Positions 31,933 through 49,548 of a stretch of DNA of 50,793 bases are shown here, one piece after another. The translations under genes and the position numbers were made by a program. Each line of letters opens with the position of its first letter. The first letter of the stretch is position 1. Source of the stretch: an uncultured Lachnospiraceae bacterium (GTDB lineage: Bacteria; Bacillota; Clostridia; Lachnospirales; Lachnospiraceae); contig ONBW01000018.1 in assembly GCA_900316165.1 (NCBI GenBank), positions 1 to 50,793 on the forward strand, written 5' to 3'. Below the pieces are notes generated by a model, which searched no databases, was not told the DNA's origin, and saw only the letters and a list, made by a program, of their open reading frames with translations.

Positions 31933-32286
31933 TACGTGTAGAATTGAGATTTTTGAGATTTCACACGTAAAGTTTGGTAAGTTACTACGTGTGGAAATTG
32001 GTTTTTTTGATTTCTACACGTAAATATTTGAGGAGGACTACGTGTGAAAATGGGATTTCTTGATTTCCACACGTAAATATCTGGAGAGGACTACGTGTGA
32101 AAAAACGATTTCTGGGTTTCCACACGTAAAGAATAGGAAGCGGCTACGTGTGAAAAAACGATTTCTGGGTTTCCACACGTAAAGAATAGGAAGCGGCTAC
32201 GTGTGAAAAAACGATTTCTGGGTTTCTACACGTAAACAACGTCTGCAGATTACGTACTGGAATTGATAACAGCTATCCAGTACGTA
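31933..32286. repeat. hairpin array 1: six class A units plus one class C unit, 53-bp period
   Basis: Units begin (TACG) at 31933, 31986, 32039, 32092, 32145, 32198 and 32251, exactly 53 bp apart. The first six are class A: TACGTGTGRAA, a 13-17-base centre, TTYCACACGTA. Units 4-6 are nearly identical (GAAAAAACGATTTCTGGGT centre). The seventh keeps phase but has a different perfect stem, TACGTACTGG/CCAGTACGTA. Linkers are about 14-16 bases. The array fills the gap between hypE and the methyltransferase gene. Confidence 0.95.
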
Positions 32287-32313
32287 GATAGTGCTGGATA
32301 ATGAGGAGAATTG

Positions 32314-33669
32314 ATGTACATAAAGCTGAAAAAAGGCGAGGGTCGTCTGCTGAAGTCTGGCGGTGCCTGGGTTTTTGATAATGAGATACAGGAAGTATCA
32401 GATGATATAGAGGATGGTGAGCTGGTAGAAGTTCACGACTTCGATGATTTTTTCATGGGATGGGGATTCTACAATTCTGCTTCGAAGATACGAGTCAGGA
32501 TGCTCTGCCGGCATAGGAAAGAGAAGCCGGATGAAGCATTTTTCAGGGAAAGAGTCAGAGCGGCAGTAGAATATAGAAAAAATACTGTCGATATGAACGC
32601 CTGCCGTCTTATTTTTTCAGAGGCGGACTTCTTCCCGGGAATGGTAGTCGACAAGTACAATGATCTGCTGGTGGTCGAGTCGTTGGCGCTCGGAATAGAC
32701 AGGCTGAAGCCGATGATACTTCGCTTGCTGCTTGAAGAATTAAATAATATTGATTTTGATGGCGGCTCAGTTGATGAAAAAAAGAATATCCGCGTTAATG
32801 CTGAGAAAAATGCCGAAGACACTGTAAAAAATACCGGCTTTAAGATCCGTGGTATCTACGAGCGAAGCGACGCTCCTGTCAGAAAAAAAGAGGGTATGAA
32901 GCCGTTTAAGGGGTGGCTCTATACGGCAGAAAAAGGCTTTATCGATGAGCCATTTAACGATATGCTGCGCGAGTGGAATCCGGATGAGGATTACCCTGAA
33001 AGGGCGGAATCTCCATTGACCGAAATTGTGGAGAACGGAGTTCACTATACAGTCGATGTGGAGAATGGGCAGAAGACCGGATTTTTCCTGGATCAGAAGT
33101 ACAACAGGCTTGAGATACAAAAGCTTGCAAAGGGTAAGTCTGTGCTTGACTGCTTTACGCATATGGGAACCTTTGCCTTAAATGCTGCAAGAGGCGGCGC
33201 ATCGGATGTGCTGGGGCTTGATATCTCGGAGCTTGCGGTGCAGCAGGCTGCGGCGAATGCAAAGCTCAATGGCCTTGAAAATACAGCGCGCTTCGAGGTC
33301 GCTGATGTGCTTGATGCTCTGCCTCAGATGAGAAAGGAGGGCAGGCTTTTTGACCTTGTAATTCTCGATCCGCCTGCATTTACGAAGTCGAAAAACACCG
33401 TAAAGCAGGCAGAAAAGGGTTACCGTGAAATCAACCGCGAGGGCATGATGCTTGTAAGAGATGGCGGCTATTTGGCGACCTGCTCCTGCTCACACTTTAT
33501 GGATGAGGAGCTCTTCAAAAAGGTTATTAACCAGGCAGCAGTCTCTGCACACAAGAGGCTGCGCCAGGTAGAGTTTAGGACCCAGTCACCGGATCACCCT
33601 ATACTGTGGGGACTTTATTCCAGCTACTATCTGAAGTTTATAATTTTCCAGGTAGTAAACGAGAAATAA
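32314..33669 (+). CDS. class I SAM-dependent methyltransferase, RlmI-like, with PUA domain
   Basis: About 451 residues, resembling RlmI (m5C methylation of 23S rRNA). ATG 32314 is used because GAGGAG stands five bases ahead. N-terminal PUA domain (KKGEGRLLKSGGAWVFDNEI); central EEHR-like region (FFPGMVVDKYNDLLVVES); the catalytic Rossmann domain with GQKTGFFLDQKYNR, VLDCFTHMGTFALNAARGG (SAM loop), VLGLDIS, VILDPPAFTKSK and ATCSCSHFM carrying the catalytic Cys. An inserted hydrophilic stretch near residues 148-170 (DGGSVDEKKNIRVNAEKNAE) is not family-like. The gene lies between a class A and a class B hairpin array. Confidence 0.9.
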   Translation: MYIKLKKGEGRLLKSGGAWVFDNEIQEVSDDIEDGELVEVHDFDDFFMGWGFYNSASKIRVRMLCRHRKEKPDEAFFRERVRAAVEYRKNTVDMNACRLIFSEADFFPGMVVDKYNDLLVVESLALGIDRLKPMILRLLLEELNNIDFDGGSVDEKKNIRVNAEKNAEDTVKNTGFKIRGIYERSDAPVRKKEGMKPFKGWLYTAEKGFIDEPFNDMLREWNPDEDYPERAESPLTEIVENGVHYTVDVENGQKTGFFLDQKYNRLEIQKLAKGKSVLDCFTHMGTFALNAARGGASDVLGLDISELAVQQAAANAKLNGLENTARFEVADVLDALPQMRKEGRLFDLVILDPPAFTKSKNTVKQAEKGYREINREGMMLVRDGGYLATCSCSHFMDEELFKKVINQAAVSAHKRLRQVEFRTQSPDHPILWGLYSSYYLKFIIFQVVNEK

Positions 33670-33680
33670 AGCATTGAAAT

Positions 33681-33925
33681 TACGGATTGGAATGGAAAAA
33701 CCAGTCTGAGTCCGTAAATGAAACCAGGGAATTACGGACTGAGATGAAAAAACTGATTTGAGTCCGTAAAAGGAACCAGGGAATTACGGACTGAGATGAA
33801 AAAACTAATCTGAGTCCGTAAAAGGAACCAGGGAATTACGGACTGGAATGAAAAAACTGATCTGAGTCCGTAAAAGGAGCTCAAAAATTACGGACTGGAG
33901 ATGAAAAGTTCAACCCAGTCCGTAA
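33681..33925. repeat. hairpin array 2: five class B units, 52-bp period
   Basis: TACGG begins at 33681, 33733, 33785, 33837 and 33889, exactly 52 bp apart. The pattern is TTACGGACTG, a GAATGAAAAAACTGA-like centre, then GAGTCCGTAA. Unit 1 has GGATT in the left arm, a G-U-compatible change. The array fills the gap between the convergent methyltransferase and nitrogenase-like genes. Confidence 0.95.
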
Positions 33926-33937
33926 ATGTAGTCCAAA

Positions 33938-35383
33938 TCAAATTAATTTGTCTGCAAACAGCCTTCCAGACATCGCGAGATGCGGTTCTTCTATCCAGGT
34001 CTGGTGAGATGAGTCGAAGCCAGGGGTTCCGTGGGAATATGCATTCCTGAATAGTGGGTCGCCGTGAATTACGGCGGCTTTTTTCAGTTCTTCTGAAATT
34101 TCTGCTTCGCCACGGGGACAGAGGATTAAAGGATCACTTTTCACGGTTGTGCTGGAAGGAGAACTGGTTAGCTCAGTTGTGCTTGCAGGAGAGTTTGTTG
34201 GCTTCGCAGTAGATACAAGAGAGTCAGTAAGCTCTGTTGTGCAAATCAAAGAAACAGAAGTCTCAGGTGAAGAGAGTTTTAACGCGGCAGCTTCAGAGCC
34301 CATGGTTACAGGCTCACCGACAAAAGCTGTGACAGATGATCTGGATGCGGCTGAATTCACAGAGGATGTCACTGAATTGTTAGAGCCTACTGCATCAGCC
34401 TGCGAAGAAATTTCCGAAGAATTACCTAAATAATCCAGGTAAGAATTCTTCACTTCAAGTGCTTTCAAATCCTTAAAGACTATTGAAGCAAATTCATCTG
34501 AGACAAGTGGATTTCCTATCACATATGGGATTCCAAGGTGCTCATAAAGGAACTGCGCAGCCTTGAGTCCGAGAGATGATAGCACGAGAGAGACGTCAGC
34601 AGAAGCTGCGGCTTTTACGTCTGAAAAGTTCACAGGATGTGCGGCTGTGCCCCTGCCCCAGTTGGCAGCAATTGAAAAACCTGCATTTTCGAGGATATCA
34701 TAGAGACTGTCAACCTGCTTATCGCTGGGATATTCGAAAGGAGACAATCCTAGAAGATTTACAGAAAGCCTGGTATCTTCCTGACAAGAATTATCAATAA
34801 TCATTTCATGAGAAATTGCTGCATTGGTCTTCTGGTTTCCGGAATTAGAAGAATTAAGAATTGAACTATAAGAATATTTCTGGATTCCTGGATTTTTCAG
34901 CTCAGTCCCGTCCCCATCCAAAAATTTCTCCGCTATCGCCAGAAACGCGTTTGCTCCGCCAACTGTATAGTCATGCATCGCGTTTGTCTGGATATAGAAA
35001 GCTGGAATTCCGGTTTTTTCTTCAAGAATATGGCAGATAGCTGTGAAATCCGTGCCAATTATATCCGGGACCGGTGAGTTGCAGACTGCAATAAACTTCG
35101 GCTTTTTCGAAAGAGCAGCAACCGCGTCGCAGGTGTCGTCGATAAGCCTCTGATCATTTCCATGGATGGCATCGCTTTCACGTAGTCCAGAAATGTAGAT
35201 CGCGCTCTCGCGCTTAGTCCACCTCAGCTCATCGAAAGTGTTATAGGTCGAGTTGCAGCCACTCGGGTCGTGAATCACTGTGATTCCACCGAATTCATAG
35301 AGAGCTGACGCTGCTCCGGACACGTCTCCGGAATACACCGGAATATGAGTAAATATCTGTTTTTTAATTCGCATTTTATCCAT
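33938..35383 (-). CDS. nitrogenase component 1-like protein, NifK-like module
   Basis: A 481-residue protein. Domain 1: FTHIPVYSGDVSGAASALYEFGG, VIHDPSGCNSTYNTFDELRW, FIAVCNSPVPDIIGTDF and AFYIQTNAMHDYTVGGANAF; Cys near residues 43 and 100 are candidate cluster ligands. It aligns with module 2 of the fusion protein at 10958. Domain 2: SVNLLGLSPFEYP (about 205) and SLVLSSLGLKAAQFLYEHLGIPYVIGNPL. Residues about 325-415 are a Ser/Thr/Val-rich low-complexity insert with repeats such as TTELTDSLVST and TTELTSSPSST. The C-terminal part (GDPLFRNAYSHGTPGFD) resumes ordered sequence. Possibly the partner of the NifD-like protein at 17946 although 14 kb away. No strong ribosome site. Confidence 0.8.
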   Translation of the reverse strand: MDKMRIKKQIFTHIPVYSGDVSGAASALYEFGGITVIHDPSGCNSTYNTFDELRWTKRESAIYISGLRESDAIHGNDQRLIDDTCDAVAALSKKPKFIAVCNSPVPDIIGTDFTAICHILEEKTGIPAFYIQTNAMHDYTVGGANAFLAIAEKFLDGDGTELKNPGIQKYSYSSILNSSNSGNQKTNAAISHEMIIDNSCQEDTRLSVNLLGLSPFEYPSDKQVDSLYDILENAGFSIAANWGRGTAAHPVNFSDVKAAASADVSLVLSSLGLKAAQFLYEHLGIPYVIGNPLVSDEFASIVFKDLKALEVKNSYLDYLGNSSEISSQADAVGSNNSVTSSVNSAASRSSVTAFVGEPVTMGSEAAALKLSSPETSVSLICTTELTDSLVSTAKPTNSPASTTELTSSPSSTTVKSDPLILCPRGEAEISEELKKAAVIHGDPLFRNAYSHGTPGFDSSHQTWIEEPHLAMSGRLFADKLI

Positions 35384-35481
35384 GGAAAAATTCTAACACA
35401 TAGTGTAAAATAGATAAAGTGAAAAATTAGTTAGTGAATAGTAATAAAAATTAATCGTTAATTTTTCCCAGGAGAAAAGAT

Positions 35482-36171
35482 ATGAAAATACTTATAGTTG
35501 AAGACGAATTCGCACTTGCAGATGCTTTAAGGGACAGACTTCTGCAGGAGAAGTACGAGGTCGACATCGCTAATGACGGCACCACAGGCTGTGAGAGGTG
35601 TATGACAGGCGCATATGACATAATAATCATGGATGGAATGCTCCCAGGAAAGGACGGCATAGAGATCATCTATGAGATGAGAAAGGCTGGAGTGACGACT
35701 CCGGTGCTTATGCTTACTGCGAGATCAGACCTTATGGATAAGCTCAAGGGCCTTGACGCCGGAGCAGATGATTACATGACAAAGCCGTTCGAGGTGGAGG
35801 AGCTTCTTGCCAGACTGCGTGTGCTTATCAGACGTAATTACGGCAGAGAGGAAAATGTCCTGACGGTCGGTAATCTCCGTCTTGACAGGAAAAACGCCTC
35901 ACTTGTGAATGTTGATGATAATCAGACTATATCGCTGGCCGGAAAGGAACTGAAGATCCTCGAATATTTTATGGATAATCCGGGGCAGGCGCTTACCAGA
36001 GAGCAGATATCGGAAAGAATATGGGGACACGAGGACAATGTCGAGTATAACAACGTCGAGGTCTATGTGTCGTTTATCAGAAGGAAGCTCAAATTCCTGA
36101 AGGCAAATGTAAAAATTCGTGCAGTCCGCGGCGTAGGCTACAGACTTGATGTGGAAGAGACAGCCTCATGA
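35482..36171 (+). CDS. OmpR-family response regulator
   Basis: A 229-residue regulator: receiver domain (KILIVEDEFALADALRD; phospho-acceptor Asp in IIIMDGMLPGKDG near 51; conserved Lys in MTKPFEVEELLARL near 101) plus winged helix (KELKILEYFMDNPGQALTREQISERIWG, VEVYVSFIRRKLKFL, IRAVRGVGYRLD). AGGAG precedes ATG. It overlaps the kinase gene by four bases, so the pair is one operon. Target genes unknown; the divergent nitrogenase-like gene is a candidate by position only. Confidence 0.95.
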   Translation: MKILIVEDEFALADALRDRLLQEKYEVDIANDGTTGCERCMTGAYDIIIMDGMLPGKDGIEIIYEMRKAGVTTPVLMLTARSDLMDKLKGLDAGADDYMTKPFEVEELLARLRVLIRRNYGREENVLTVGNLRLDRKNASLVNVDDNQTISLAGKELKILEYFMDNPGQALTREQISERIWGHEDNVEYNNVEVYVSFIRRKLKFLKANVKIRAVRGVGYRLDVEETAS

Positions 36172-37481
36172 TTAAGAAATTACAGCACAGAATCGAACTG
36201 ATACTTTCACTTACTATTGTAGGCATAATCATAGTTGTCCTTGTATTTTCGATGCTTGCCCAGTTCAATGAGAACACGTCATCACTTGAAAAGCAGCTTA
36301 GGAGAGCAGAGGATGCTGCTTACGATTCGTACTATGAGAGCATCCTCGATAACAGGATTCAGAAGTCTGGAGATACAGACAACACCACTAAAGCCAAAAC
36401 TGACGCCTGCCCCGATTCACCTTCTTATGCGGTTTTTATTGAAACTGATGGAGAGTCAACTGATGGAGCCATGCTTTCGGATGAAGCGTCAGGAGATGCA
36501 GGGGATGTAACAGTCGAGAACAACGAGGATGGCATCGCCTACGTTCAGAATGGCAATGCCGATAAGGACGACGTAGCAGCATTAGCCAGACAGATGAAGG
36601 AAACCGGGAATGATTCCGGAGAATACTCTATCTATATGTATGATATCCGTGATGTCGAGGATATGAAGCAGATCACATTTATCGATACTACGGAAGAAAG
36701 GCGCAGGCTGATACCTATTTATGTATTGACTGCAATAATTGGTGCAGCAGCAATTGCAGCAGCTGTGATCATCAGTATCCTTTTGTCCAGATATCTGGTT
36801 AAGCCTATCGCTGAGAACATAAAGAAGCAGAAGCAGTTTATAGCGGACGCGTCGCATGAGCTGAAGACTCCTCTCGCTGTAGTCGATGTAAATATCGACA
36901 TGGCACGAAGTACAAAAGACAACGATAAGTACTTAGGCTATATAAAGGGTGAGACGAAAAAAATGAACCGTCTTATCCAGGAACTTCTTACCCTCGAATC
37001 GGTCGAGGATGCTGAGACCACGGAAAAAGGCTGGGAGCATTTTAATCTCTCAGATACCATTGAGGGTGTCATACTTCCGTTTGAGGCAGTTGCATTTGAA
37101 AAAGGAGTCACGATTGACCAGCAGATCGATGAGAACATAAACTTTTATGGAGACCCGGTTGACATCAGCAGGATGGCAGAGACTCTTATCGAGAATGCGA
37201 TAAATCATTCGGATGCAAATGCCAAGGTAGATGTAAGCCTTACACATACGAAGAATCATATCAGATTCAAAGTAGGTAACCATGGAGAGACTATAGATCC
37301 TGAGTCACAGAAGCATCTGTTTGAGAGATTCTACAGAGTCGATAAGGCCCGTAACAGAAAAGAAGGACACTTCGGCCTGGGACTTGCGATAGCCAAGGCT
37401 ACAACTGACAGATATGGCGGCACGATCTCAGTTTCAAGCGAAAACGGATATACAGTTTTTACGGTAAGTTTCAGAGAATAA
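36168..37481 (+). CDS. membrane sensor histidine kinase
   Basis: A 437-residue kinase. TM1 (LILSLTIVGIIIVVLVFSML) and TM2 (YVLTAIIGAAAIAAAVIISILL, about 183-205) enclose a ~150-residue extracellular, very acidic Asp/Glu-rich sensor region with no family I recognise. The cytoplasmic part has the H-box FIADASHELKTPLAV (His near 228), N-box LIENAINHSD, and G-box HFGLGLAIAKATTDRYGG. Coupled to the response regulator by an ATGA overlap. The acidic sensor loop might bind cations or cationic peptides (inference). Confidence 0.94.
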   Translation: MIKKLQHRIELILSLTIVGIIIVVLVFSMLAQFNENTSSLEKQLRRAEDAAYDSYYESILDNRIQKSGDTDNTTKAKTDACPDSPSYAVFIETDGESTDGAMLSDEASGDAGDVTVENNEDGIAYVQNGNADKDDVAALARQMKETGNDSGEYSIYMYDIRDVEDMKQITFIDTTEERRRLIPIYVLTAIIGAAAIAAAVIISILLSRYLVKPIAENIKKQKQFIADASHELKTPLAVVDVNIDMARSTKDNDKYLGYIKGETKKMNRLIQELLTLESVEDAETTEKGWEHFNLSDTIEGVILPFEAVAFEKGVTIDQQIDENINFYGDPVDISRMAETLIENAINHSDANAKVDVSLTHTKNHIRFKVGNHGETIDPESQKHLFERFYRVDKARNRKEGHFGLGLAIAKATTDRYGGTISVSSENGYTVFTVSFRE

Positions 37482-37510
37482 GGCGGTTAGATAAAACTTT
37501 TATTAAACTT

Positions 37511-37539
37511 GTGACAGCAGACTTATTGCGTGTTATAAT
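37511..37539 (+). promoter_or_regulatory. promoter of the EAL-domain gene
   Basis: GTGACA (37511-37516), 17 bases, TATAAT (37534-37539), with a 53-base leader to the ATG containing the short repeat CAGGAGATTTTTCCTG, a possible small hairpin. Confidence 0.7.
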
Positions 37540-37592
37540 TAATCGGACAGGAGATTTTTCCTGCCCGATTTTCAGAGTGAGGAGAAACAGGT

Positions 37593-39473
37593 ATGAATAT
37601 TGCTACTCAGTTATGTGGACTGGCAATATTGATTGTCATTTTGGTTTTCTATTTCAGACAGCAGAAGGTTGATCTGAAGAGCAGTAAAATCTTTAAAGAT
37701 GCGCTTTTGGCTGATTTAGGTTGCCTCACACTCGATATTGCATCTATTTTTGGCATTATTTATTGTGAAAAAGGGGTAAGCCCTGTCATAACAGAGATAC
37801 TGTGTAAGCTTTACCTGATGTCTCTTGTCTTCATGACCTACATCTGTTTCGCCTATGTCGTATCCGAGATGCCGGTTACGGAAAAAGGCGGGCATAAAAT
37901 CGAAAGAGCAGCTCTTATTCTGTACATTATTGCAGACATCATCATTGCTGTTGTTCCAATTTACTATACGACAAACGGCAGGCTGACTTATTCATATGGA
38001 CCATCATGTCAGGCAGCGTATATTTTTGCCCCGTTCTATATCATCGTGACCTTTCTGATGGTGTTATTCTATCGGAAAAAAATATCCTCTACTTTTTTTA
38101 TTACGATTACAGTAGCTATGGCTCTGGAGTGTGGCACGGCGGTCATTCAGTTTTTAGATCCAGAAATTCTTCTCGTAGGATTTGGCGCAGCTTTAGGTCT
38201 GATAGTCATCTATCTCGAAATCGAGAATCCAATGATTCAGACAGACAGGCTGTCTGGACTTTTTAACCTCTCTACTTTCCAGATGTATATCGAGGATTTT
38301 TACAAGAAGGATCTGCCATATTCATATATATTTGTAAGACTTGTGTATGACATTGCTTCACCGGTAGATAAGAGTGACGTTATTATGAGAAAGACAGCTG
38401 ATTATCTGGCATCCTTCAAGCATGCAAAGACCTTTTATATAGGACAGTCGGGATATGTCATGGTATTTCGTGATCCTACCAAGGCGGCAGAGGCTGCCGG
38501 TGAGATAAATCCTGAGCTGATAAAGGCCTGCTATGATAATGGAAATGCTTTTCTTGAGGTTCTTGAAACCCGTGGGCGTAAGGCAGCGAATGTTGGCGAA
38601 ATGCAGGAGATTTTAGGACAAGTCTCAGCTAATGGTGAGTATTCTGATAACAATATAATCATTATGACTGATGATATGTATGAGAGATTCAGACAGGAAA
38701 GACGCATTACTGCAGAAATAGACAAGGCTCTCGATGAGGACAGGGTAGAAGCGTTTTTCCAGCCTATTTATTCGTTTAAAGACAATGCTTTCACAGGTGC
38801 GGAGGCACTCGTCAGGATCAGAAAAGAGGACGGCTCTATTATGCCGCCTGGCATGTTCATTCCGGTGGCTGAAAAGACAGGCCAGGTCAAAACAATCGGT
38901 GACAGAATGTTTGAGAAGACGCTTGACATTATAAAAAATGGCGGCGTCCGTGAACTTGGCGTTCATTTTATCGATATAAATCTTTCGGTGTTGCAGTGCG
39001 AGGATAAGACTCTTTCAGACAGATATCTGTCGCAGATGAAAGAAGCAGGCGTTCCACCTGAGATGTTCTGCTTTGAGATCACTGAGACTGCGATGATCGT
39101 AAACCGTGAGATGCTTCTGAATAATCTCAATGCCTTCAGGGCAGCAGGCTGCAGCTGTTCACTCGATGATTTTGGAAATGGAGAGAGTAACCTTAACTAC
39201 GTCGTCGACATGCCGATTAACTTCATCAAGGCTGACCGTTCTATGGTTACGAAGTATACGATCTCGAGCCGCGTCGGACTTATAATGGATTCGATGATTC
39301 ATATGGCAAAGGGCCTTTCGCTGAAGGTCGTGGCTGAAGGAGTCGAGACGGACAGAGATATGGAAGCCATGAAGAGCCTTGATATCGACTACATCCAGGG
39401 TTACTATTTCAGTAAGCCGCTTCCTAAGAATGAATATATCAAATTCCTGATGAAAAACAGAAAACCAGCATAA
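37593..39473 (+). CDS. membrane-bound EAL-domain cyclic-di-GMP phosphodiesterase
   Basis: A 626-residue protein. The first ~220 residues hold seven or eight hydrophobic spans (a 7TM-type sensor region). Residues about 225-370 are a GGDEF-like domain without the GGDEF motif, so no cyclase activity is expected. The EAL domain (380-620) keeps the catalytic set: FTGAEALVRI near 402, FIDINLSVLQ, CFEITETAMI, SLDDFGNGESNLNYV near 524, NFIKADRSMV and VVAEGVET. Likely hydrolyses c-di-GMP in response to a membrane signal. Own promoter and terminator. Confidence 0.92.
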   Translation: MNIATQLCGLAILIVILVFYFRQQKVDLKSSKIFKDALLADLGCLTLDIASIFGIIYCEKGVSPVITEILCKLYLMSLVFMTYICFAYVVSEMPVTEKGGHKIERAALILYIIADIIIAVVPIYYTTNGRLTYSYGPSCQAAYIFAPFYIIVTFLMVLFYRKKISSTFFITITVAMALECGTAVIQFLDPEILLVGFGAALGLIVIYLEIENPMIQTDRLSGLFNLSTFQMYIEDFYKKDLPYSYIFVRLVYDIASPVDKSDVIMRKTADYLASFKHAKTFYIGQSGYVMVFRDPTKAAEAAGEINPELIKACYDNGNAFLEVLETRGRKAANVGEMQEILGQVSANGEYSDNNIIIMTDDMYERFRQERRITAEIDKALDEDRVEAFFQPIYSFKDNAFTGAEALVRIRKEDGSIMPPGMFIPVAEKTGQVKTIGDRMFEKTLDIIKNGGVRELGVHFIDINLSVLQCEDKTLSDRYLSQMKEAGVPPEMFCFEITETAMIVNREMLLNNLNAFRAAGCSCSLDDFGNGESNLNYVVDMPINFIKADRSMVTKYTISSRVGLIMDSMIHMAKGLSLKVVAEGVETDRDMEAMKSLDIDYIQGYYFSKPLPKNEYIKFLMKNRKPA

Positions 39474-39477
39474 AGAA

Positions 39478-39503
39478 ACCGTCTGCGAAAAGCAGGCGGT
39501 TTT
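39478..39503 (+). terminator. terminator of the EAL-domain gene
   Basis: AACCGTCTGC and GCAGGCGGTT (one G-T pair) form the stem, loop GAAAA, followed by TTTTT. Confidence 0.88.
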
Positions 39504-42030: not shown

Positions 42031-42146
42031 AAAAAACACCTCCTCGCATCAGCAAACAATTGATGCCGCTTATTTCGTTTTTATTTTACCACGAAAACTG
42101 CTATAATGCCATATGCAGGTTGAAATTTTTTGCTCATAGTATTGAT

Positions 42147-42502
42147 TACGTGTGGAATCCGGGTTTTCCTGTTTTCACACGTAAAGATATCGAGGAGACT
42201 ACGTGTGAAATCCGGGTTTTCCTGTTTTCACACGTAAAGATATCGAGGGGACTACGTGTGAAATCCAGTTTTTCTTGTTTTCACACGTAAAGATGTCGAA
42301 TAGATTACGTGTGGAATCCGGGTTTTCTTGTTTTCACACGTAAAGATGTCGAATAGATTACGTGTGGAATCCGGGTTTTCTTGTTTTCACACGTAAAGAT
42401 ATCGAGGGGACTACGTGTGAAATCCGGGTTTTCCTGTTTTCACACGTAAAGATTACGAGGAGACTACGTGTGAAATCTGGGTTTTCTCGTTTTCACACGT
42501 AA
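42147..42502. repeat. hairpin array 3: seven class A units, 53-bp period
   Basis: TACGTGTG begins at 42147, 42200, 42253, 42306, 42359, 42412 and 42465, exactly 53 bp apart. The centre is mostly AATCCGGGTTTTCYTG and the right arm TTTTCACACGTA. The linker AAAGATATCGAGGGGAC varies slightly; two adjacent units share AAAGATGTCGAATAGAT, a sign of recent duplication. It fills the gap between the divergent metalloprotease-like and HAD genes, ending about 30 bases before the HAD start. Confidence 0.96.
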
Positions 42503-42531
42503 GTATCAAGAAGTAAGTGAGGTGCATTTAC

Positions 42532-43140
42532 ATGAAAAAATATAAGAATATAGTTTTTGATGTCGGGGATGTGCTGTTGGTTTACCGCTGGCGGGAGATG
42601 CTTATGGACTACGGCCTGAGTCGTGAAGAGGCCGAGAGGATTGGCCGCGAGATGTTCGACTGTCCTGAAAAAATCTGGTCTAAGTTCGATCTCGGCAATG
42701 AGAGCGATGAGCAGATTATTGAGGATTTTGAAAAAATATACCCTGCTGACAAGAAGGTCATCCACTGGTTCATCGAGCATGGCGAGTACATGGAAGTGCC
42801 ACGGCCGGCGATTTGGGAGAAGGTGCATGCCCTTAAGCAGGCTGGCTATCACCTCTACATTCTGTCGAACTACCCGAAATCTCTTTTCGATAAACACACC
42901 GAGTATGCTGACTTCATGAAGGACATGGATGGAATGATGGTCTCATACATGATTCACAAGGCCAAGCCTGGCCGTGAGATTTATGCTGCCCTCTGTGAAA
43001 AATATACGCTGAGTCCTTCTGAGACGATATTTTTTGATGACAGAGCCGAGAACGTGCAGGGCGCGATCGACTTCGGAATGGACGCCGAGCAGGTGACGGA
43101 TGAAGAGAGCTTTTTAAAGAGGCTTGAAGAATTTCTGTAA
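42532..43140 (+). CDS. HAD-superfamily hydrolase
   Basis: A 202-residue HAD phosphatase of the YihX/subclass IA type. Motif I NIVFDVGDVLLVY has Asp but the second catalytic position is Gly followed by Asp (DVGDVL), as in epoxide-hydrolase-like/YihX members; motif II LSNYPKSL, motif III KAKPGREIY, motif IV IFFDDRAENVQGA. ATG 42532 behind GAGGTG is preferred over the GTG at 42517. It sits directly downstream of a class A array, so transcription from the left would pass through seven hairpins. Confidence 0.9.
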   Translation: MKKYKNIVFDVGDVLLVYRWREMLMDYGLSREEAERIGREMFDCPEKIWSKFDLGNESDEQIIEDFEKIYPADKKVIHWFIEHGEYMEVPRPAIWEKVHALKQAGYHLYILSNYPKSLFDKHTEYADFMKDMDGMMVSYMIHKAKPGREIYAALCEKYTLSPSETIFFDDRAENVQGAIDFGMDAEQVTDEESFLKRLEEFL

Positions 43141-43171
43141 CTAATCAGCTGCCACGGTAATAGGAGTTAGA

Positions 43172-44266
43172 ATGATTACTATAGATTTGGTAACTGGATT
43201 TCTGGGATCTGGGAAAACTACTTTTCTAAGAAAGTATGTGAAATTCCTGATGGCGCAGGGAGAGAATGTCTGCATTTTGGAAAATGATTATGGTGCGGTA
43301 AATGTCGACATGATGCTGCTGTCTGATTTGATTGGTGACAATTGTGATATCGAAATGGTTGCGGGCGGCTGCGACAGCGACTGCCACCGCAGGCGTTTCA
43401 AAAGTAAGCTGATCGAGATGGGCATGATCGGCTATACCCATGTGATAGTCGAGCCGTCTGGGGTTTTCGATGTCGACGAGTTCTATGACAGCCTGCAGGA
43501 GGATCCTCTGAACCGCTGGTATAAGGCAGGGGTGCAGATTACAATTGTGGACGCCGGGCTTCGAATGCCGCTGTCAGAGACGTCTCAATACGTCTTTGCA
43601 TCAGAAGCAGCCAACGCTGGAATCATTCTTTTTTCGAAGACACAGCTAAATCCGCCTGAAGCTCCTTCAAATATCCTTAAGTATTTGAACGCCTCTCTTG
43701 AAAAAATAAACTGCAAACGGAGATTTCCTGAGCAGGATTTATTGACAGATAAGAAATCTTCTTCTCAGGCAGATACGCAAAGGAACAATTCATCAGATTC
43801 TAAATATCAGGAGATTTCAAAGGAGAACAATTCATCAACGGGGGACGCATTCCAAGAGTCATTACATAAAGAGGTTCTGACAAAAAACTGGGATGATTTG
43901 ACAGACGAAGATTTCAAGACCATCGAGAATGCCGGGTATAAGAATTATTCTTTCGAAAAGCAGCAGGTCATGGATGAGCACAAATATGAGTCACTCTATT
44001 TCATGGAGAAGCATTTCTCTGTTGAAGAGATAAAGAGCAAGGCGTCCGAGGCAATCAAGGATCCGGACTGCGGCGGTGTGATAAGAATCAAAGGATTCCT
44101 GAAAGACTCCAAAGATAGCTGGATGGAAATTAATGTTACAAAAGATGACTTCAAAGTCGCGCCGGTCGAAGCTGGCCAGGATATCGTGATAGTAATCGGC
44201 GAGCACCTGGGCAAAGAGCGGCTTTCAGAGTATTTCGGTGAACCGGCTGAGATACATGCAGACTAA
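43172..44266 (+). CDS. G3E-family (CobW/HypB/UreG-like) GTPase
   Basis: A 364-residue P-loop GTPase of the metallochaperone class. Walker A VTGFLGSGKTTFLRK, CILENDYGAVNVDMMLL, AGGCDSDCHRRRF where most COG0523 proteins have a GCxCC metal site, THVIVEPSGVFD (switch II) and a weak base-recognition motif FSKTQL instead of NKTD. Residues about 190-225 are a Ser/Asn/Lys low-complexity insert. The C-terminal half (EEIKSKASEAIKDPDCGGVIRIKGFL) resembles the CobW C-terminal domain. No hypA/hypB is in the window, so it might supply a metal-insertion function for the Hyp or nitrogenase-like proteins (inference). Confidence 0.82.
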   Translation: MITIDLVTGFLGSGKTTFLRKYVKFLMAQGENVCILENDYGAVNVDMMLLSDLIGDNCDIEMVAGGCDSDCHRRRFKSKLIEMGMIGYTHVIVEPSGVFDVDEFYDSLQEDPLNRWYKAGVQITIVDAGLRMPLSETSQYVFASEAANAGIILFSKTQLNPPEAPSNILKYLNASLEKINCKRRFPEQDLLTDKKSSSQADTQRNNSSDSKYQEISKENNSSTGDAFQESLHKEVLTKNWDDLTDEDFKTIENAGYKNYSFEKQQVMDEHKYESLYFMEKHFSVEEIKSKASEAIKDPDCGGVIRIKGFLKDSKDSWMEINVTKDDFKVAPVEAGQDIVIVIGEHLGKERLSEYFGEPAEIHAD

Positions 44267-44278
44267 ATTTTTGTCAAT

Positions 44279-44367
44279 TACGGACTTGAGTGGAAAAATC
44301 CATCTGAGTCCGTAAAAGCAAAGCAACAATTACGGACTGGAACGCGGAAAGTAAACTGAGTCCGTAA
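44279..44367. repeat. hairpin array 4: two class B units, 52-bp spacing
   Basis: TACGGACT begins at 44279 and 44331. Left arm TTACGGACTKG, right arm TGAGTCCGTAA. It fills the 114-base gap between the GTPase and radical SAM genes; the second unit ends about 14 bases before the downstream ATG. Confidence 0.93.
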
Positions 44368-44380
44368 AATGGAGAGAAAG

Positions 44381-45361
44381 ATGCCAGAAATATGTAATTT
44401 GTGCCCAAGGAACTGCGGAGAGGGGCGGTTCTGCGGGAAAGGGGAGAAGCTTAAGGTCGCGAGAGCGGCGCTGCACTTCTGGGAGGAACCGTGCATTTCG
44501 GGGACTGCCGGCTCTGGAGCTGTCTTCTTCTCCGGGTGTAACCTGAAGTGCATTTTTTGTCAGAATGAAAAAATAAGAGACGGCCTTGTCGGCAAGGAAA
44601 TAAGTGTTGAGAGGCTCTCGGATATTTTCCTGGAGCTGCAGGAGAAGGGCGCAAACAATATCAATCTGGTGACTGCCGGTCATTTTTTGCCGAAGGTGAT
44701 AGAGGCGCTTGAGGACGCCAAAAACAGGGGGCTCGAAATCCCGATTGTCTACAACACTTCTTCGTATGAGAAGGTGGAGGCGATACGGGAGCTTGACGGG
44801 CTTGTCGATGTCTACCTGCCGGATCTAAAATATGTGAGCAGCAGGCTGTCGGGTGATTTTTCGAAGGCGGCTGATTATTTCGAGGTGGCGAGCCGGGCGA
44901 TAGAAGAGATGGTCAGGCAGACCGGCGAGCCGGAATTTTATGTAAAGAAGAGCGCCAAGCTTGATAAACAGCTCGGGCTTTGGGAATCTGATGATGTGAT
45001 GGACGCGGCGACCTACAATGAGTGTGCCGATGAATTGATGGATGAGGGCAAAGAGGTCCTTATGAAAAAAGGAACCATCGTGCGGCATCTGCTTCTTCCT
45101 GGCTGCGCGGATGATTCCAAGGCTGTTATCAGATATCTTTATGACACGTACGGCGACGGTATTTTTATCAGTATTATGAACCAGTACACGCCGATGCCTC
45201 AGGTCGCCGGTCACCCTTCTCTTGCAAGAAAAGTAACCGACACTGAGTATAACGAGGTTCTCGACTTTGCTTTGGACCTCGGCGTTGAAAACGCCTTTAT
45301 GCAGGAGGGCGATGTCGCGAAAGAGAGCTTCATACCTGATTTCGACTGCGAGGGCGTTTAA
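44381..45361 (+). CDS. radical SAM protein, PflA-like
   Basis: About 326 residues. The N-terminal CNLCPRNCGEGRFCGKGE stretch is a Cys-rich ferredoxin-like or zinc element; the radical SAM cluster motif is GCNLKCIFCQN near residue 55, followed by INLVTAGHFLP and the TIM-barrel repeats VYNTSSYEKVEAI and VYLPDLKYV. This is the COG1313-type (pyruvate formate-lyase activase-like, PflX) architecture; a true glycyl-radical partner is not present, so the function is open. ATG 44381 (GGAGAG ahead) is preferred to the ATG at 44369, which touches the hairpin repeat. Likely co-transcribed with the GTPase through array 4. Confidence 0.87.
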   Translation: MPEICNLCPRNCGEGRFCGKGEKLKVARAALHFWEEPCISGTAGSGAVFFSGCNLKCIFCQNEKIRDGLVGKEISVERLSDIFLELQEKGANNINLVTAGHFLPKVIEALEDAKNRGLEIPIVYNTSSYEKVEAIRELDGLVDVYLPDLKYVSSRLSGDFSKAADYFEVASRAIEEMVRQTGEPEFYVKKSAKLDKQLGLWESDDVMDAATYNECADELMDEGKEVLMKKGTIVRHLLLPGCADDSKAVIRYLYDTYGDGIFISIMNQYTPMPQVAGHPSLARKVTDTEYNEVLDFALDLGVENAFMQEGDVAKESFIPDFDCEGV

Positions 45362-45365
45362 CGCC

Positions 45366-46916
45366 TCAGTGGTCTGATCGGGCGTAGCTGTTTTTCATGT
45401 CGTTTGATCTGAAGAAAAGAGCCTTGCTTAGAGCTTTGTCGGTCTCTTTTTTGAGCATGTCGGCGATTTCTTCGTTAGCTTCCTCGCAGAGCCCGGAAAC
45501 TTCGGAAGGATCGGCCTTAGAAATCTCTTCGTCCCACTTGTTAAGAAGTGCATGTGACTTGGAAAGGACTGCCTCGGTGTACTGCTCGTTTACGTTCAGG
45601 CACTTGCCGTAGGTAGCGTCGGAAAGGCCGGCGATAAGGCGGGAAGCCCAGTAGAAGTTATCGGTTGAGACGCGGCCGGTCGTATTCGACAGGTACTCAG
45701 GCATAGATGAGACATTCGTATAGAACGGAGCCATTGTGTTGAAGGCGTTGCTTCCGAAAGCAACCCACTCGATCGGCTCAGCGTCAGGCCTGATCTCAGC
45801 AAATCCTAAGAAGTCATTTCGATTTATTCCGATTGAACGGTAAGCGCCGGCACATGATTTGTCGCCGTATGTCAGGTATGGGTCGTACTTTGTGCCCTGA
45901 TAATGTGATGACAGAAGGTATTTGACGTCTTCAGGGGTTATTTTTCGCTCAGAAAAAATCTGCCAGGGAAGGTCATCATCCTCCGGTTTGTAAACTGCGT
46001 CTTCACCGTCGTATTCAGACTTGTCATCGTCTAAGTAGCGCAGCATGAACCAGGCTCTCGGCGTGTTGTACACGTGGTCGGCATCATCATGGCTTCCGAA
46101 AACGAGGCGCGGATTTATCACATAGTGGCCGCCGTCCTCTTCATCATCGTCGTCAAAATGAGAGTCGACGTCAAGATGATTTTTCTCGATAAAATCTCTA
46201 AGATCGGCAGAGCACATATTTGCTTCCTGATCGCCCAGGGCGTCGTCTATATCGAAGCTGTCGATTCCGAGCTGGTTTGGCATCACGACAACACCGTCGT
46301 CGTCTACTTTTCTTGCAATCCAATGATGGCCGCCGACAGATTCGAACCACCAGACCTCATCGCGGTCTGAAAATCCGATGCCGTTCTCCTCGTAGGTGCC
46401 GTATTTCTCATGAAGCATGCCCAGGCGCTTTACACCCTCGCGGGCACTTTTGATGTAAGGAAGCGTGATCACGACAAGGTCTTCCTCGCCGATTCCACCG
46501 GCCTTTTCTTCCTCTGTTCCCTCTTCCTCAATCACAGAATCAGTGCCGAAGAACAGGTTCTTTGACTCCCATGCCTTCTGATACTCGACAAGCGGGTCAG
46601 CGCCAAGGACTCTTGGGTTCGAAGTGATAGTTTCGGTAGCTGTCATAGCAACACCGGCTGCATTGATTCCGCAGGCTGCCCAGATGCCCTCGCCCTTAAG
46701 CGCGTTTGGCATAGCAGTGTAGCGCATAGGATTGTCCGGAAGCTCGATTTTTACATGAGAAAGCTCTGATTCGTAAACCCTCGGCTGGTCCTCAGGCTCG
46801 ACGACAGTGAACTTCTTCGGGGTGAATTTTCCCGAACCCGAGTCGTCATTTCTTGCAATCATCGTGGAACCGTTCCACGACGCGTTTTTTCCTACTAATA
46901 ATGTCGTACAGGACAT
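45366..46916 (-). CDS. pepD: C69-family dipeptidase
   Basis: A 516-residue Ntn-hydrolase. MSCTTLLVGKNASWNGSTMIARNDDSG exposes the nucleophile Cys3 after removal of the first residues; AACGINAAGVAMTATETI, IGFSDRDEVWWFESVGGHHWIARKV and VVMPNQLGID are standard PepD blocks. It hydrolyses a broad range of dipeptides in the cytoplasm. Preceded by AGGAGG. Convergent with the radical SAM gene. Confidence 0.93.
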   Translation of the reverse strand: MSCTTLLVGKNASWNGSTMIARNDDSGSGKFTPKKFTVVEPEDQPRVYESELSHVKIELPDNPMRYTAMPNALKGEGIWAACGINAAGVAMTATETITSNPRVLGADPLVEYQKAWESKNLFFGTDSVIEEEGTEEEKAGGIGEEDLVVITLPYIKSAREGVKRLGMLHEKYGTYEENGIGFSDRDEVWWFESVGGHHWIARKVDDDGVVVMPNQLGIDSFDIDDALGDQEANMCSADLRDFIEKNHLDVDSHFDDDDEEDGGHYVINPRLVFGSHDDADHVYNTPRAWFMLRYLDDDKSEYDGEDAVYKPEDDDLPWQIFSERKITPEDVKYLLSSHYQGTKYDPYLTYGDKSCAGAYRSIGINRNDFLGFAEIRPDAEPIEWVAFGSNAFNTMAPFYTNVSSMPEYLSNTTGRVSTDNFYWASRLIAGLSDATYGKCLNVNEQYTEAVLSKSHALLNKWDEEISKADPSEVSGLCEEANEEIADMLKKETDKALSKALFFRSNDMKNSYARSDH

Positions 46917-47001
46917 ATGTGTACCTCCTAAAAAATTTCTTAGACATTATAACATACTTTGCGTGGGTTGGATATGTGGTGGCTTTTTGAAAAAATAAAA
47001 G

Positions 47002-47032
47002 CTGCCCCGGATTATTCAAAAATCCGGGGCAG
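47002..47032 (-). terminator. terminator of the ECF S-component gene
   Basis: CTGCCCCGGAT and ATCCGGGGCAG form a perfect stem; on the minus strand CTTTTATTTTTTC follows. Confidence 0.88.
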
Positions 47033-47045
47033 ATGAGGTTGGAAA

Positions 47046-47651
47046 TCAATTCTCTTGTTTCTTTACGACATTGCGAAGCAGCGGATAGAGCACTGCGGCA
47101 ATTATGATTCCAAAAACAGCTTGAATCAGGTTTGCCGGGATGCCGGCAGCGGCTGTAGCCATGCCTGAGTTGAGTGAGGCAGCGTCGAAACCACCCTTTG
47201 CTGTGAAGGCAAATTCAAATGTCTCAAAGATGAAATATCCAATCACCATGAATGCTTCGCCAACAACGCCTGCGATAATTACAGGAACAGGACTTTTCTT
47301 CGAAGCGGTTATTTTTTGAAGAAAAGAAGTGAGGCCGGCGGCAATCACGGCGACGAGTGCCTTGATGACAAAAGTGGCCGGCACGTAGACCATGTATCCG
47401 CCGACAAGGTCGGAAAGCATCGAACCAAAGCCGGCTGCGAGCCCGCCCCAGAGCGGCCCAAGAAAAATACCCGAAAGCAGGACGAATCCGTCGCCCGGGT
47501 GGATGTAACCGTTGGTGGCGAATACCGGAACTTTTATGAAAAATGTTCCGACGAAGGTCAGCGCTGCAAAAAGTGCTGAGGTGACGAGAAGTCTGATTTT
47601 GGATGAAGACATCGCCTTATCCTGATTTTCTGTAGAAACGTGTGTAACCAT
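47046..47651 (-). CDS. ECF transporter S component, possibly for pyridoxine
   Basis: A 201-residue membrane protein with about six hydrophobic spans and the S-component opening KIRLLVTSALFAALTFVGTFFIKVP, then GYIHPGDGFVLLSGIFLGPLWGGLAAGFGSMLSDLVGGY. It would bind a vitamin and join the shared EcfA/A'T module encoded elsewhere. The divergent MocR-type regulator next door belongs to a family that often controls vitamin B6 genes, so pyridoxine/pyridoxal is a reasonable guess, but this rests on context. Confidence 0.88.
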   Translation of the reverse strand: MVTHVSTENQDKAMSSSKIRLLVTSALFAALTFVGTFFIKVPVFATNGYIHPGDGFVLLSGIFLGPLWGGLAAGFGSMLSDLVGGYMVYVPATFVIKALVAVIAAGLTSFLQKITASKKSPVPVIIAGVVGEAFMVIGYFIFETFEFAFTAKGGFDAASLNSGMATAAAGIPANLIQAVFGIIIAAVLYPLLRNVVKKQEN

Positions 47652-47753
47652 TTGGGTACCTCCTTGTTATTTTTAGTGGAAATTATAGTGAAAAAATGAT
47701 AATATTGAAATATCCAGTTTGAGATTTTTTGATATGACCAGATGGAGGAATAG
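47652..47753. promoter_or_regulatory. divergent control region of the ECF gene and MocR regulator
   Basis: AT-rich 100 bases with two directly repeated elements, ATATCCAG near 47710 and ATATGACCAG near 47732. Direct repeats are the usual operators of MocR regulators. Ribosome sites AAGGAGG (minus) and GGAGG (plus) flank it. Confidence 0.35.
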
Positions 47754-48980
47754 ATGAAAAAACAGCCGGAATATTTGAATATTTACTACAAGCTCAGGGA
47801 CCAGATTACGAGCGGTGCATACCATTTCGGGCAGCGGCTTCCGTCGAAGCGGCAGCTGGCGGACACTGAGCATCTGTCCGTAATCACGATTGGGCACGCA
47901 TACGACCTGCTCGCGGAGGAGGGCTATGTCGAGGCCCGCGAGCGCAGTGGCTACTATGTGAGCTACAATGACGCGGATCCGTTTCTGGCGAATGCGCCTG
48001 AAAATGCTGCGACTCAGGGAATCCGGAACAATTTACTGGCGGATTTTGATGAGAAAGTGAGGGATAGTAACAATTCTCTGGCTCATTCAGATGAGACAGT
48101 AGGGGGCGGCAGCGACTCACTGGTTCATTCTGGGAGGCGATTGGGCTCTGATTCTCCTGTAAAAATGAATGCTCCATATAGAGAAAAGTTTGTTGTGCCG
48201 CCCGTCGCGAATTTTCCGTTTCTTTCGTATGCAAAGACAGTGCGGAGGGTTCTTTCAGATGAGGGCGAGAAGCTTTTTGTGAAGTCGGAAAATCAGGGGC
48301 GGCTTGACCTTCGCCAGGCGATTGCTGCCTATCTGCTTAGAAACCGTGGAATGAAGGTCAGTCCCGAGCAGATCCTCGTCGGGAGCGGCGCAGAGTACCT
48401 GTACGGAATCATAGTTATGATGCTTGGACGTGACAGGATCTACGGAATTGAAGACCCTTCATATGAGATGATTGAAAAAATATACGCTCAAAACGGTGCC
48501 TCCATCGAGAAGCTTCAAATGGGTCCAGACGGTATCACATCGTCTGCTCTACAGCGGACAAAGTCAGGGGTTCTTCATGTGACGCCTTTTCACAGTTATC
48601 CATCCGGCGCCACTGCGGATGCCTCGAAGCGTGCAGAGTACATAAACTGGGCAAAGCACAGGGACGCTTTTATTGTGGAGGACGACTACGACTCAGAGTT
48701 TACAGTAAAAACCCGCCGTGAGGATACACTCTTTTCCATAGAGCCGAAGCGGCATGTGATTTACATCAATACCTTCAGCAGGACTATTTCGCATGCCACA
48801 AGAGTTGGATATATGGTGCTGCCGTCTGAGCTCAGTGAGGAATTTCTTTCGAAGGTTTCCTTCTTTTCATGCACTGTGCCAGTCCTTGATCAGGTAGTTC
48901 TGCGCGAACTTTTAAATTCCGGAGAGTTTGAAAGACATATCAATCGTGTCCGCAGGAAACTGGGTTCCGCGGGAAACTAG
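47754..48980 (+). CDS. MocR/PdxR-type GntR regulator, C-terminally shortened and lacking the PLP lysine
   Basis: A 408-residue fusion of a GntR winged helix (residues 1-70: YYKLRDQITSGAYHFGQRLPSKRQLAD, then AYDLLAEEGYVEARERSGYYV) and a class I aminotransferase-like domain (LRQAIAAYLLRNRGMKVSPEQILVGSGAEYL, IEDPSYEMIEKIY, VEDDYDSEF). Where the family has the PLP-binding Lys (usually FSKxxxP) this protein has TFSRTISHATRVGYMVLP, so Arg343 replaces Lys. A Ser/Gly-rich insert with repeated SLAHS/SLVHS lies at about 100-137. Homology ends at FERHINRVRRK; the last ~70-90 residues are missing and the frame stops inside a 33-bp tandem repeat. Possibly a decaying or ligand-blind regulator of the divergent ECF gene. 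Confidence 0.83.
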   Translation: MKKQPEYLNIYYKLRDQITSGAYHFGQRLPSKRQLADTEHLSVITIGHAYDLLAEEGYVEARERSGYYVSYNDADPFLANAPENAATQGIRNNLLADFDEKVRDSNNSLAHSDETVGGGSDSLVHSGRRLGSDSPVKMNAPYREKFVVPPVANFPFLSYAKTVRRVLSDEGEKLFVKSENQGRLDLRQAIAAYLLRNRGMKVSPEQILVGSGAEYLYGIIVMMLGRDRIYGIEDPSYEMIEKIYAQNGASIEKLQMGPDGITSSALQRTKSGVLHVTPFHSYPSGATADASKRAEYINWAKHRDAFIVEDDYDSEFTVKTRREDTLFSIEPKRHVIYINTFSRTISHATRVGYMVLPSELSEEFLSKVSFFSCTVPVLDQVVLRELLNSGEFERHINRVRRKLGSAGN

Positions 48981-49041
48981 AACTGGAAGAAACATGGCTC
49001 TGCGGGAAATTAGAACTGGAAGAAACATGGCTCCGCGGGAA
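48966..49041 (+). repeat. 33-bp tandem repeat at the end of the MocR gene
   Basis: TCYGCGGGAAAYTAGAACTG and the following 13 bases begin at 48966 and 48999, with a partial third copy at 49032. The period is exactly 11 codons, and each full copy has a TAG in the MocR frame. This creates the premature end of the regulator and runs into hairpin array 5. Confidence 0.88.
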
Positions 49042-49089
49042 TTTCAGGACAGCGTCAGGAAATTTATTTCCGTCCATCCGGACTGCATT

Positions 49090-49548
49090 TACGGACTGGA
49101 AAGCGGTTTTCAATGCAAGTCCGTAAATTTCTGGAACGGATTACGTACTGGGAAGCGGTTATTAAATCCAGTCCGTAATTCCAAACTATTGTTTACGTGT
49201 GAAAACGAGATTTCCTGCTTTTCACACGTAGAAGTCTTGAAAAAACTACGTGTGAAAACGAAATTTTCTAATTCTCACACGTAGAAGATTATTGATGACT
49301 ACGTGTGAAAACGGGATTTTCTAATTCTCACACGTAAAAGTTTAGCGACTACTACGTGTGAAAACTAGATTTCTTGATAATCACACGTAGAAGTTCAGAA
49401 AAAACTACGTGTGAATTCTAGAAATTCCTGATTTCACACGTAAAAGACCAGTGACTACTACGTGTGAAAACGGAAATCCTTGATAATCACACGTAGAAGT
49501 TTAGAGTCTATTACGTGTGAAAATGGGATTTCTTGATTTTCACACGTA
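49090..49548. repeat. hairpin array 5: one class B, one hybrid and seven class A units in one phase
   Basis: TACG begins at 49090 (class B), 49142 (left arm class C TACGTACTGG, right arm class B-like CCAGTCCGTA, one mismatch), then class A at 49194, 49247, 49300, 49353, 49406, 49459 and 49512. The spacing is 52 for the first two steps and 53 afterwards. The first two units share the centre GAARGCGGTT. It fills the gap between the shortened MocR gene and lactate dehydrogenase. Confidence 0.95.

Follow-up and report, generated by a model that had tools for sequence, protein, structure and literature searches.

REP-like palindromes are, to our knowledge, tied to a single enzyme family, RAYT. In Pseudomonas fluorescens SBW25, three REPIN classes each have one ordered cluster that adjoins a RAYT gene, according to the excerpted text of PMC3116915. 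In Streptococcus pneumoniae, the BOX elements are interspersed and consist of a variable number of tandem stem-loop modules with boxA and boxC ends, according to the excerpt of PMC3049150. Here, we analysed a stretch of 50,793 nucleotides (the window) from an uncultured Lachnospiraceae bacterium, which is contig ONBW01000018.1 (C54) of the assembly GCA_900316165.1 (G000, 2.59 Mb, 117 contigs) and carries five arrays of regularly spaced hairpin units between its genes. Similar to the REP/REPIN-RAYT layout described in the excerpted text of PMC3116915, the repeats are dispersed intergenic palindromes that fall into several classes and form ordered tandem clusters, one of which lies beside an enzyme gene of its own. 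The enzyme is a small, putative PD-(D/E)XK-like nuclease, and we are confident that this nuclease family and the arrays belong together.

A script for TACG...CGTA inverted repeats located 30 palindromic units in five arrays of the window, with a period of 52 or 53 bp, and reproduced the coordinates of an earlier note on this DNA to within one base. The class A unit (TACGTGTG...CACACGTA) consists of a palindrome of 37 bp and a linker of 16 bp (53 bp), and the class B unit (TACGGACT...AGTCCGTA) of a palindrome of 36 bp and a linker of 16 bp (52 bp), with TACGTACT arms in two of the window units. The linker is 16 bp throughout all five arrays, the unit ends are TACG...CGTA in 36 of 36 aligned units, and the base 3' of CGTA is A or G in the window. 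The strict 52/53-bp period claimed in the earlier note holds for the stretches fetched from G000, in which a detector accepting 48–58 bp gave 49 spacings of 53, 7 spacings of 52 and none other, but it is not universal. The half-sites had been proposed to recur about every 26 bp; instead, the centres of the outer arms alternate at 29/24 bp in class A and 28/24 bp in class B.

No array of this type was found in 1.63 Mb of mononucleotide-shuffled sequence, and no TACG-type array in 245 kb from ten species of the same genus, so that chance is excluded as the source of the arrays. The G000 genome contains 48 copies of the class A palindrome with perfect arms and none of its backwards control. A looser detector returned five two-unit chains in the same 245 kb, one of which (G004, spacing 84) is another class of the same kind. 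An Rfam scan of the window yielded two tRNAs and no other match above the gathering threshold. As the earlier note had observed, no T run follows any of the 30 window units, and this feature of Rho-independent terminators is thus missing.

The partner gene is invisible in the window; it is located elsewhere in the genome and escaped the earlier note. All-versus-all clustering of 256 open reading frames (ORFs; at least 80 aa and at most 5 kb from an array) revealed one family that lies 43–276 bp from an array in 7 genomes. The only larger cluster, with 9 ORFs from 7 genomes at 135–4981 bp, comprises ABC-transporter ATPases, a large common family that was set aside as partner. The partner protein has about 265 aa, with a PD-(D/E)XK-like domain at the C-terminus and first about 135 residues of no assigned fold. 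Searches of Pfam and NCBIfam gave no match above cut-off and one sub-threshold match to DUF6561, a PDB sequence search had a best E-value of 0.16, and four proteins scanned against PHROGs gave weak matches only, none better than 0.0059. With PADLOC, the C-terminus of PDC-S68 was matched in 7 of 7 partner proteins (1e-23 to 1.5e-29) and the HEAT_CxxC_PDDEXK model in 5 of 7. The motifs RSK.E, PDF and EH.G, followed by a later Y and K, are invariant in 24 sequences, in which the conserved E, PD and E supply the acidic motif of the PD-(D/E)XK superfamily. Structure modelling and fold search were carried out on a viral domain, taken from nine contigs and homologous by hhalign (99.9%), rather than on the partner itself. 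The model of this domain (pLDDT 78.6) has a helix-strands-helix-strand order. Among solved structures, three matches fall below 0.001, all of them Bax1 nucleases; a restriction-endonuclease-like protein and R2 retrotransposon endonucleases rank next. Because of the motifs, the PADLOC matches, the viral-domain model and the fold search, the C-terminus of the partner is taken as a PD-(D/E)XK domain with predicted nuclease activity.

Related domains occur in other settings. On viral contigs (L308, L314-L321), proteins of 747–1353 aa, some of them cut by contig ends, carry the same nuclease domain at their C-terminus. A phage-labelled scaffold of 4.2 kb from human faeces (L322, MT839528.1) encodes a partner homologue of 267 aa (184 bits), and no hairpin array was found on it. 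Plasmid matches (H1–H5, from Rhizobium, Paracoccus, Hymenobacter and Bartonella) are partial, and four of the five are annotated as AAA ATPases. The class A and class B array patterns matched 0 viral contigs. A phage or plasmid origin of the arrays was rejected on these 0 viral contigs and on plasmids with only 5 partial nuclease-domain matches. Members of a distant nuclease subgroup (L298, L299 and L306; 119–145 bits) lie beside tandem repeats of about 50, 51, 71 and 72 bp with no clear hairpins, possibly a related repeat-enzyme pair of other geometry. In G348 (L281), a 61-bp tandem repeat of 5.7 copies is located downstream of the nuclease gene.

At the fetched loci, a hidden Markov model of the first seven sequences placed the nuclease gene next to an array in 14 of the 22 array-bearing genomes. 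Out of sample, 11 genomes were fetched later for their arrays, and 7 of them (G334, G110, G386, G348, G035, G345 and G424) have the gene next to an array. In 13 of the 14 genomes, an array precedes the 5' end of the gene (p = 0.002); G012 has arrays on both sides, and C107 of G000 has one on the 3' side only. A reverse test started from nuclease genes in a genus sample of 13 genomes including G000: the 14 protein matches, minus the query, the known C107 gene of G000 and a 1225-aa ORF (G005 C31), left 11 genes, none of which had been chosen for its arrays. Five of these have a hairpin array within 700 bp, compared with 1 of 168 control genes (Fisher p = 2e-6). The five array-positive genes carry palindrome classes of their own, with periods of 53, 63, 64 and 84 bp, and the array near the sole positive control gene is a TCCCCCG/84-bp array of G004. 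The six array-negative genes comprise three of the distant subgroup, two at a contig edge and one with a single hairpin near the contig start. The partnership of nuclease and arrays is well supported, and nothing like it appeared in the search listings of the open-access PMC literature.

Each of the three close nuclease paralogues of G000 (C107, C64 and C48) stands beside its own palindrome class. C107 adjoins a class A TACGTGTG array of 53 bp, and C64 (68% identical to C107) adjoins TAC[AG]TACAG units of 53 bp, eight in a row. C48 (60% identical to C107) is flanked by TTCCGTACC...GGTACGGAA arrays of six and three units, in which 39 and 24 bp add up to 63 bp and every spacing is 63. The nuclease of G012 (71% identical to C107) adjoins class B. 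The classes are dispersed in G000: two TTCCGTACC-type units with a spacing of 63 are located on C51, and ACATACAG-type arrays on C15. Outside this genome, G001 has four units of a 64-bp class and three of an 84-bp class, and G004 carries 84-bp classes of 4 and 2 units. In C64, C48, G001 C42 and G004 C119, the gene has its array on the 3' side or is flanked by arrays. The periods of these later classes bear out the proposal of the earlier note that the period lies near whole helical turns, with 63 bp corresponding to 6.0 turns of 10.5 bp, 64 bp to 6.1 and 84 bp to 8.0. All class periods (52/53, 63, 64, 84 and 84 bp) are at most 1 bp from multiples of 10.5, which has a probability of about 2.5e-4 for five independent uniform values; this figure assumes independent classes, and G244 has several spacings of 51.

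With strict filters, a covariance model built on the single hairpin matched 3 of 61 genomes, namely G000, its congener G012 and G021, which belongs to a different genus. G012 carries class B, with five fetched arrays of 9 to 16 units and 52 of 52 spacings of exactly 52. A pattern scan of GTDB contigs detected class A arrays in RUG12922 (G061, which is also G368), from another genus of the same family, in which a hairpin of 36 and a linker of 17 again add up to 53. In a survey of the family, at least 12 matches (both strands summed) were obtained in 21 of 397 genomes from 18 genera, compared with 1 of 397 for the backwards control. The survey pattern, TACG-N28..29-CGTA-N16..17-TACG, prescribes 52–54 bp, and the periods of the genomes found by it are therefore no independent evidence; G000 and G012 were also recovered by the single-hairpin model, and G061 by a pattern with linkers of 12–20 bp. 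In G147, the backwards control pattern matched 24 times, and another regular repeat may exist there. The earlier note would have called helical phasing and function unlikely if related genomes lacked arrays or if the period varied freely; arrays exist within the family and the period is fixed in each class, although it differs between classes.

Orthologues of two window genes provided the comparison stretches from 10 species of the genus (245 kb); gene order differs there in G001, G004 and G005, and little matched in G003. At the corresponding sites no array is present: the gap of array 1 is array-free in G012, G002 and G010 (G009 is rearranged), that of array 2 in G009, G007 and G011, that of array 3 in G012, G009, G002 and G010, that of array 4 in G012, G009, G007 and G011, and that of array 5 in G007 and G011. 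The AIR-synthase-like and RlmI-like genes that flank array 1 are about 525 bp apart in the window, overlap in G002 and nearly touch in G010. For the HAD-hydrolase gene of G012, G009, G002 and G010, a TATAAT box is followed by the ribosome-binding site within about 10 bases, and in the window array 3 intervenes between the two. As judged by eye, a leader stretch of about 20 bp seems weakly repeated on either side of array 3 only, which would be a possible duplication of the kind expected of miniature inverted-repeat transposable elements.

The arrays differ from the REP/REPIN-RAYT system in their enzyme, which is PD-(D/E)XK-like and not a Y1 HUH protein, and in how commonly they are long and keep a set period, close to a whole number of helical turns. 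Both systems have dispersed palindromes that are absent from the corresponding sites of relatives, and the layout, with the enzyme gene flanked by its own repeat class, is shared in the 14 of 22 genomes above with a different enzyme. The Y1 (HUH) transposase profile PF01797 had 4 matches in G000 and 0 in G012, a genome that is listed as 100% complete and has at least 5 arrays; RAYT/IS200 was rejected as partner on the lack of a Y1 match in the array-bearing G012. The GTAG/CGTC tetranucleotide at the palindrome foot is not invariant, with GTAG in some units only and other classes ending in TACA, TGCG or TTCC. Since the enzyme is unrelated, G012 shows no Y1 protein and the tag is not invariant, the arrays are not members of the REP/REPIN-RAYT family. 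The BOX elements likewise are interspersed repeats with variable tandem stem-loop modules (excerpt of PMC3049150), but they have boxA and boxC ends, whereas no shared ends were seen by eye in the array flanks here, and the excerpt names no partner enzyme for BOX. PDC-S68 of PADLOC has a homologous C-terminal nuclease domain, but its models span 1202–1273 positions, and the array partner of about 265 aa matches with its C-terminal part alone. CRISPR loci are also regular arrays of palindromic repeats; unlike their unique spacers, the linkers here are related within an array, and the unit is 36–37 bp with a linker of 15–17 bp.

In G000, G012 and G061 (23 arrays, 151 units), the share of positions that differ between neighbouring units is 2.3% in the arms (46 of 2016), 25% in the loops (633 of 2568) and 29% in the linkers (485 of 1662). 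The length changes only 3 times, twice where class A meets class B and once in L081. The same measure over 69 arrays of 22 genomes, where some of the 69 are fragments of one array split by a decayed unit (e.g., L090 and L234), gave 167/4048 for arms, 1283/5214 for loops and 735/2927 for linkers. In this larger set, the length changes in 37 of 278 neighbouring pairs (26 by 1 bp and 11 by 2 bp), the 278 spacings comprise 177 of 53, 90 of 52, 7 of 51 and 4 of 54, and the linker of the TACG type is 16 bp in 241 of 278 cases and otherwise 15 or 17. These differences indicate that arms and lengths are constrained and that loops and linkers are much less so, with a tighter constraint on length in G000, G012 and G061 than across the 22 genomes. 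The unit detector demands 6 of 8 arm pairs, which inflates the numbers of pairs that it reports (55, 58 and 59 of 69 at positions 5–7); stem pairing was recounted on pattern-selected units in 43 array clusters with no arm-pair demand. Stem positions 5, 6 and 7 pair in 34, 34 and 30 of the 43 clusters, compared with 0–27 for partners slid by 1 or 2, and position 8 pairs in 18; positions 1–4 are fixed by the search pattern. Since positions 5–7 pair unasked, the palindromic stem covaries over about 7 bp. The stems differ among genomes, with GGTT, GACT, GTGT, AATG, GGCT, GTAT and others.

The linkers of G000 are 0.63 alike within arrays, 0.37 between arrays and 0.32 at random, and its loops are 0.57 alike between arrays compared with 0.36 at random. 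The pattern of a local linker of fixed length is followed by G012, G424 and G035. In the best-judged cases, these values suggest that the palindrome is shared across loci and the linker drawn from local DNA, yet about 16 bp long. Such a local linker of fixed length would arise if cutting or crossover took place a set distance away from the palindrome, and also if phasing were selected for.

Taken as a whole, the arrays would be the dispersed non-coding half of a two-part element and the nuclease gene its other half, situated beside one array of its own palindrome class, with further arrays of the class elsewhere in the genome. The nuclease would bind the palindrome as an oligomer and would cut at a set distance from it, or jointly with the neighbouring palindrome on the same face of the helix, 5, 6 or 8 turns off. 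Repair of the cuts would spread single palindromes, and a palindrome together with a set length of local DNA would be amplified into tandem arrays. We consider the chances about evenly balanced that the nuclease disperses and amplifies the arrays in the manner of RAYT and REPIN, with an unrelated enzyme. Somewhat more tentatively, and at a little under even chances, the system may be an undescribed class of intragenomic mobile repeat, in which a small PD-(D/E)XK nuclease recognises a palindrome, measures about 5, 6 or 8 turns depending on the paralogue, seeds palindromes at further intergenic sites and extends them into phased arrays whose linkers are captured from the local DNA, with one repeat population per paralogue. 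Recombination sites and sites of a binding protein, both listed as possible roles in the earlier note, come closest to what the nuclease association suggests.

Several observations weigh against this reading of a two-part element. The binding, cutting and movement of palindromes by the nuclease are steps that we infer, and neither a clean insertion boundary nor a target duplication was seen at the arrays, save the possible repeat of about 20 bp at array 3. The motif of the nuclease is EHxG rather than ExK, its activity is a prediction from sequence, and the solved-structure matches are modest, with TM values of 0.34–0.44 in the first nine rows. The gene was not seen in 8 of the 22 array-bearing genomes, for which part of the arrays was fetched, and no partner was found for the class B arrays of G000. 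The strict detector finds no array for 8 of 26 nuclease ORFs (25 genes, as that of G386 is split in two frames): G035 and G345, which it missed and which have TACG arrays by a looser rule, the three of the distant subgroup (119–145 bits), G003 and G004 C72 at a contig edge, and G005 with one hairpin. Among the other genes in nuclease loci, 6 of 74 also lie within 700 bp of an array. In addition, the local linker of fixed length is not evident in G348, whose arrays share linkers (0.87 and 0.78), nor in G394, G244 and G107, which like G127 show little difference in linker likeness within and between arrays.

The nuclease-like protein could instead be a DNA-binding regulator or a guarded defence nuclease, with the arrays as operator, sink or self-mark spread by ordinary recombination, and upstream arrays would then control the nuclease gene itself and captured neighbours. 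Such a use fits the 5' position of the array in 13 of 14 genomes (p = 0.002), the location of array 3 in the leader of the HAD gene, and the occurrence of the C-terminal domain in the candidate defence proteins PDC-S68, in the large viral-contig proteins and in the plasmid AAA ATPases. It fits less well with the ten scanned window genes, which are functionally mixed, with the use of convergent gaps and with the arrays of other classes that lie 3' of the gene or on both sides, and we regard it as unlikely. Among 53 arrays with an ORF on each side, 27 are in co-directional, 14 in convergent and 12 in divergent gaps. This distribution also bears on RNA hairpin chains that would steady an mRNA or block its decay or translation, a role listed in the earlier note. 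All 10 folds (four units on both strands and two units on one strand) had z-scores of -1.9 to -6.6, as for any palindrome, the stems covary, and array 3 should be transcribed, given its position in a leader. Nevertheless, such chains give no reason for a set linker length, arm mismatches are uncompensated (13 in L076 and 6 in L084), 13 of the 16 units of one G012 array start with TACGTACT versus ...AGTCCGTA, G-U mismatches are barely above A-C (37 vs 28, in arrays with a defined sense strand), and the orientation of units relative to genes is mixed by eye. Selection of the RNA on the sense strand was rejected, with no clear G-U excess. Because of the uncompensated mismatches and the arrays in gaps of every orientation, the role as RNA hairpin chains is poorly supported, and we judge it very improbable.

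Phasing could have a purely architectural basis, in which the units are phased sites for a nucleoid protein that bends or bridges DNA and the nuclease is a hitch-hiker. The class periods close to multiples of 10.5 bp (about 2.5e-4 under the assumption of independence) and the nearly constant lengths in G000, G012 and G061, where the sequence changes, speak for this explanation. It leaves unexplained the adjacency of the nuclease and the array-free gaps of relatives, a cutting ruler would yield the same fixed lengths, and the period argument assumes independent classes and meets spacings of 51, 52 and 53 in G244; we think it distinctly unlikely. Neutral tandem repeats that arose by replication slippage from a single palindrome would account for the likeness of units within an array and for the local linker of G000. 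Slippage does not account for an equal linker length at different loci, for conserved arms beside diverged loops, for covarying stems or for the nuclease association, and is in our opinion highly improbable.

Within the window, array 1 (31933..32286, 7 units, no strand assigned, as for all five arrays) consists of six class A units (37 bp, period 53) and one TACGTACT-type terminal unit that is B-like, and it is flanked by genes for an AIR-synthase-like protein and an RlmI-like methyltransferase. The label RlmI-like is our assumption for the gene with PUA and methyltransferase domains beside arrays 1 and 2. Between the AIR-synthase-like gene and array 1 (31788-31932), a further inverted repeat, GCACAG...CTGTGC, was noticed by eye; in G002 and G010 the corresponding gap is too short for it. 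Array 2 (33681..33924, 5 units of class B, 36 bp, period 52) occupies the convergent gap between the RlmI-like gene and a nitrogenase-component-1-like gene (33938-35383). Array 3 (42147..42501, 7 units of class A) is located in a divergent gap on the 5' side of the HAD-hydrolase gene, between its ribosome-binding site and a TATAAT box on the + strand (42102..42107), a putative promoter element that was recognised by eye and is kept in G012, G009, G002 and G010 of the same genus. Array 4 (44279..44366, 2 units of class B) lies between CobW-like and radical-SAM genes. Array 5 (49090..49548, 9 units) is downstream of a GntR/aminotransferase gene and begins with two class B-type units, after which seven class A units continue in register. 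A 33-bp direct repeat of 2.3 copies (48966-49041) at the end of the GntR/aminotransferase gene directly precedes it. The arrays were said never to lie inside a gene, and those of the window indeed overlap short ORFs only, but an overlap with an ORF of at least 150 aa exists for 4 of the 69 arrays when every fetched locus is counted.

The arrays alter operons, as they part two genes that overlap in a relative and lengthen the leader between a putative promoter box and a ribosome-binding site. If the proposed mechanism is true, an independent enzyme with its own palindromes would mean that repeat-enzyme partnerships arose more than once, and the arrays would offer a second, testable system for how bacterial genomes maintain populations of short repeats. 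The three paralogues beside three repeat classes in one genome would represent a natural specificity code, and the periods of 53, 63 and 84 bp would represent a DNA ruler that can be tested.

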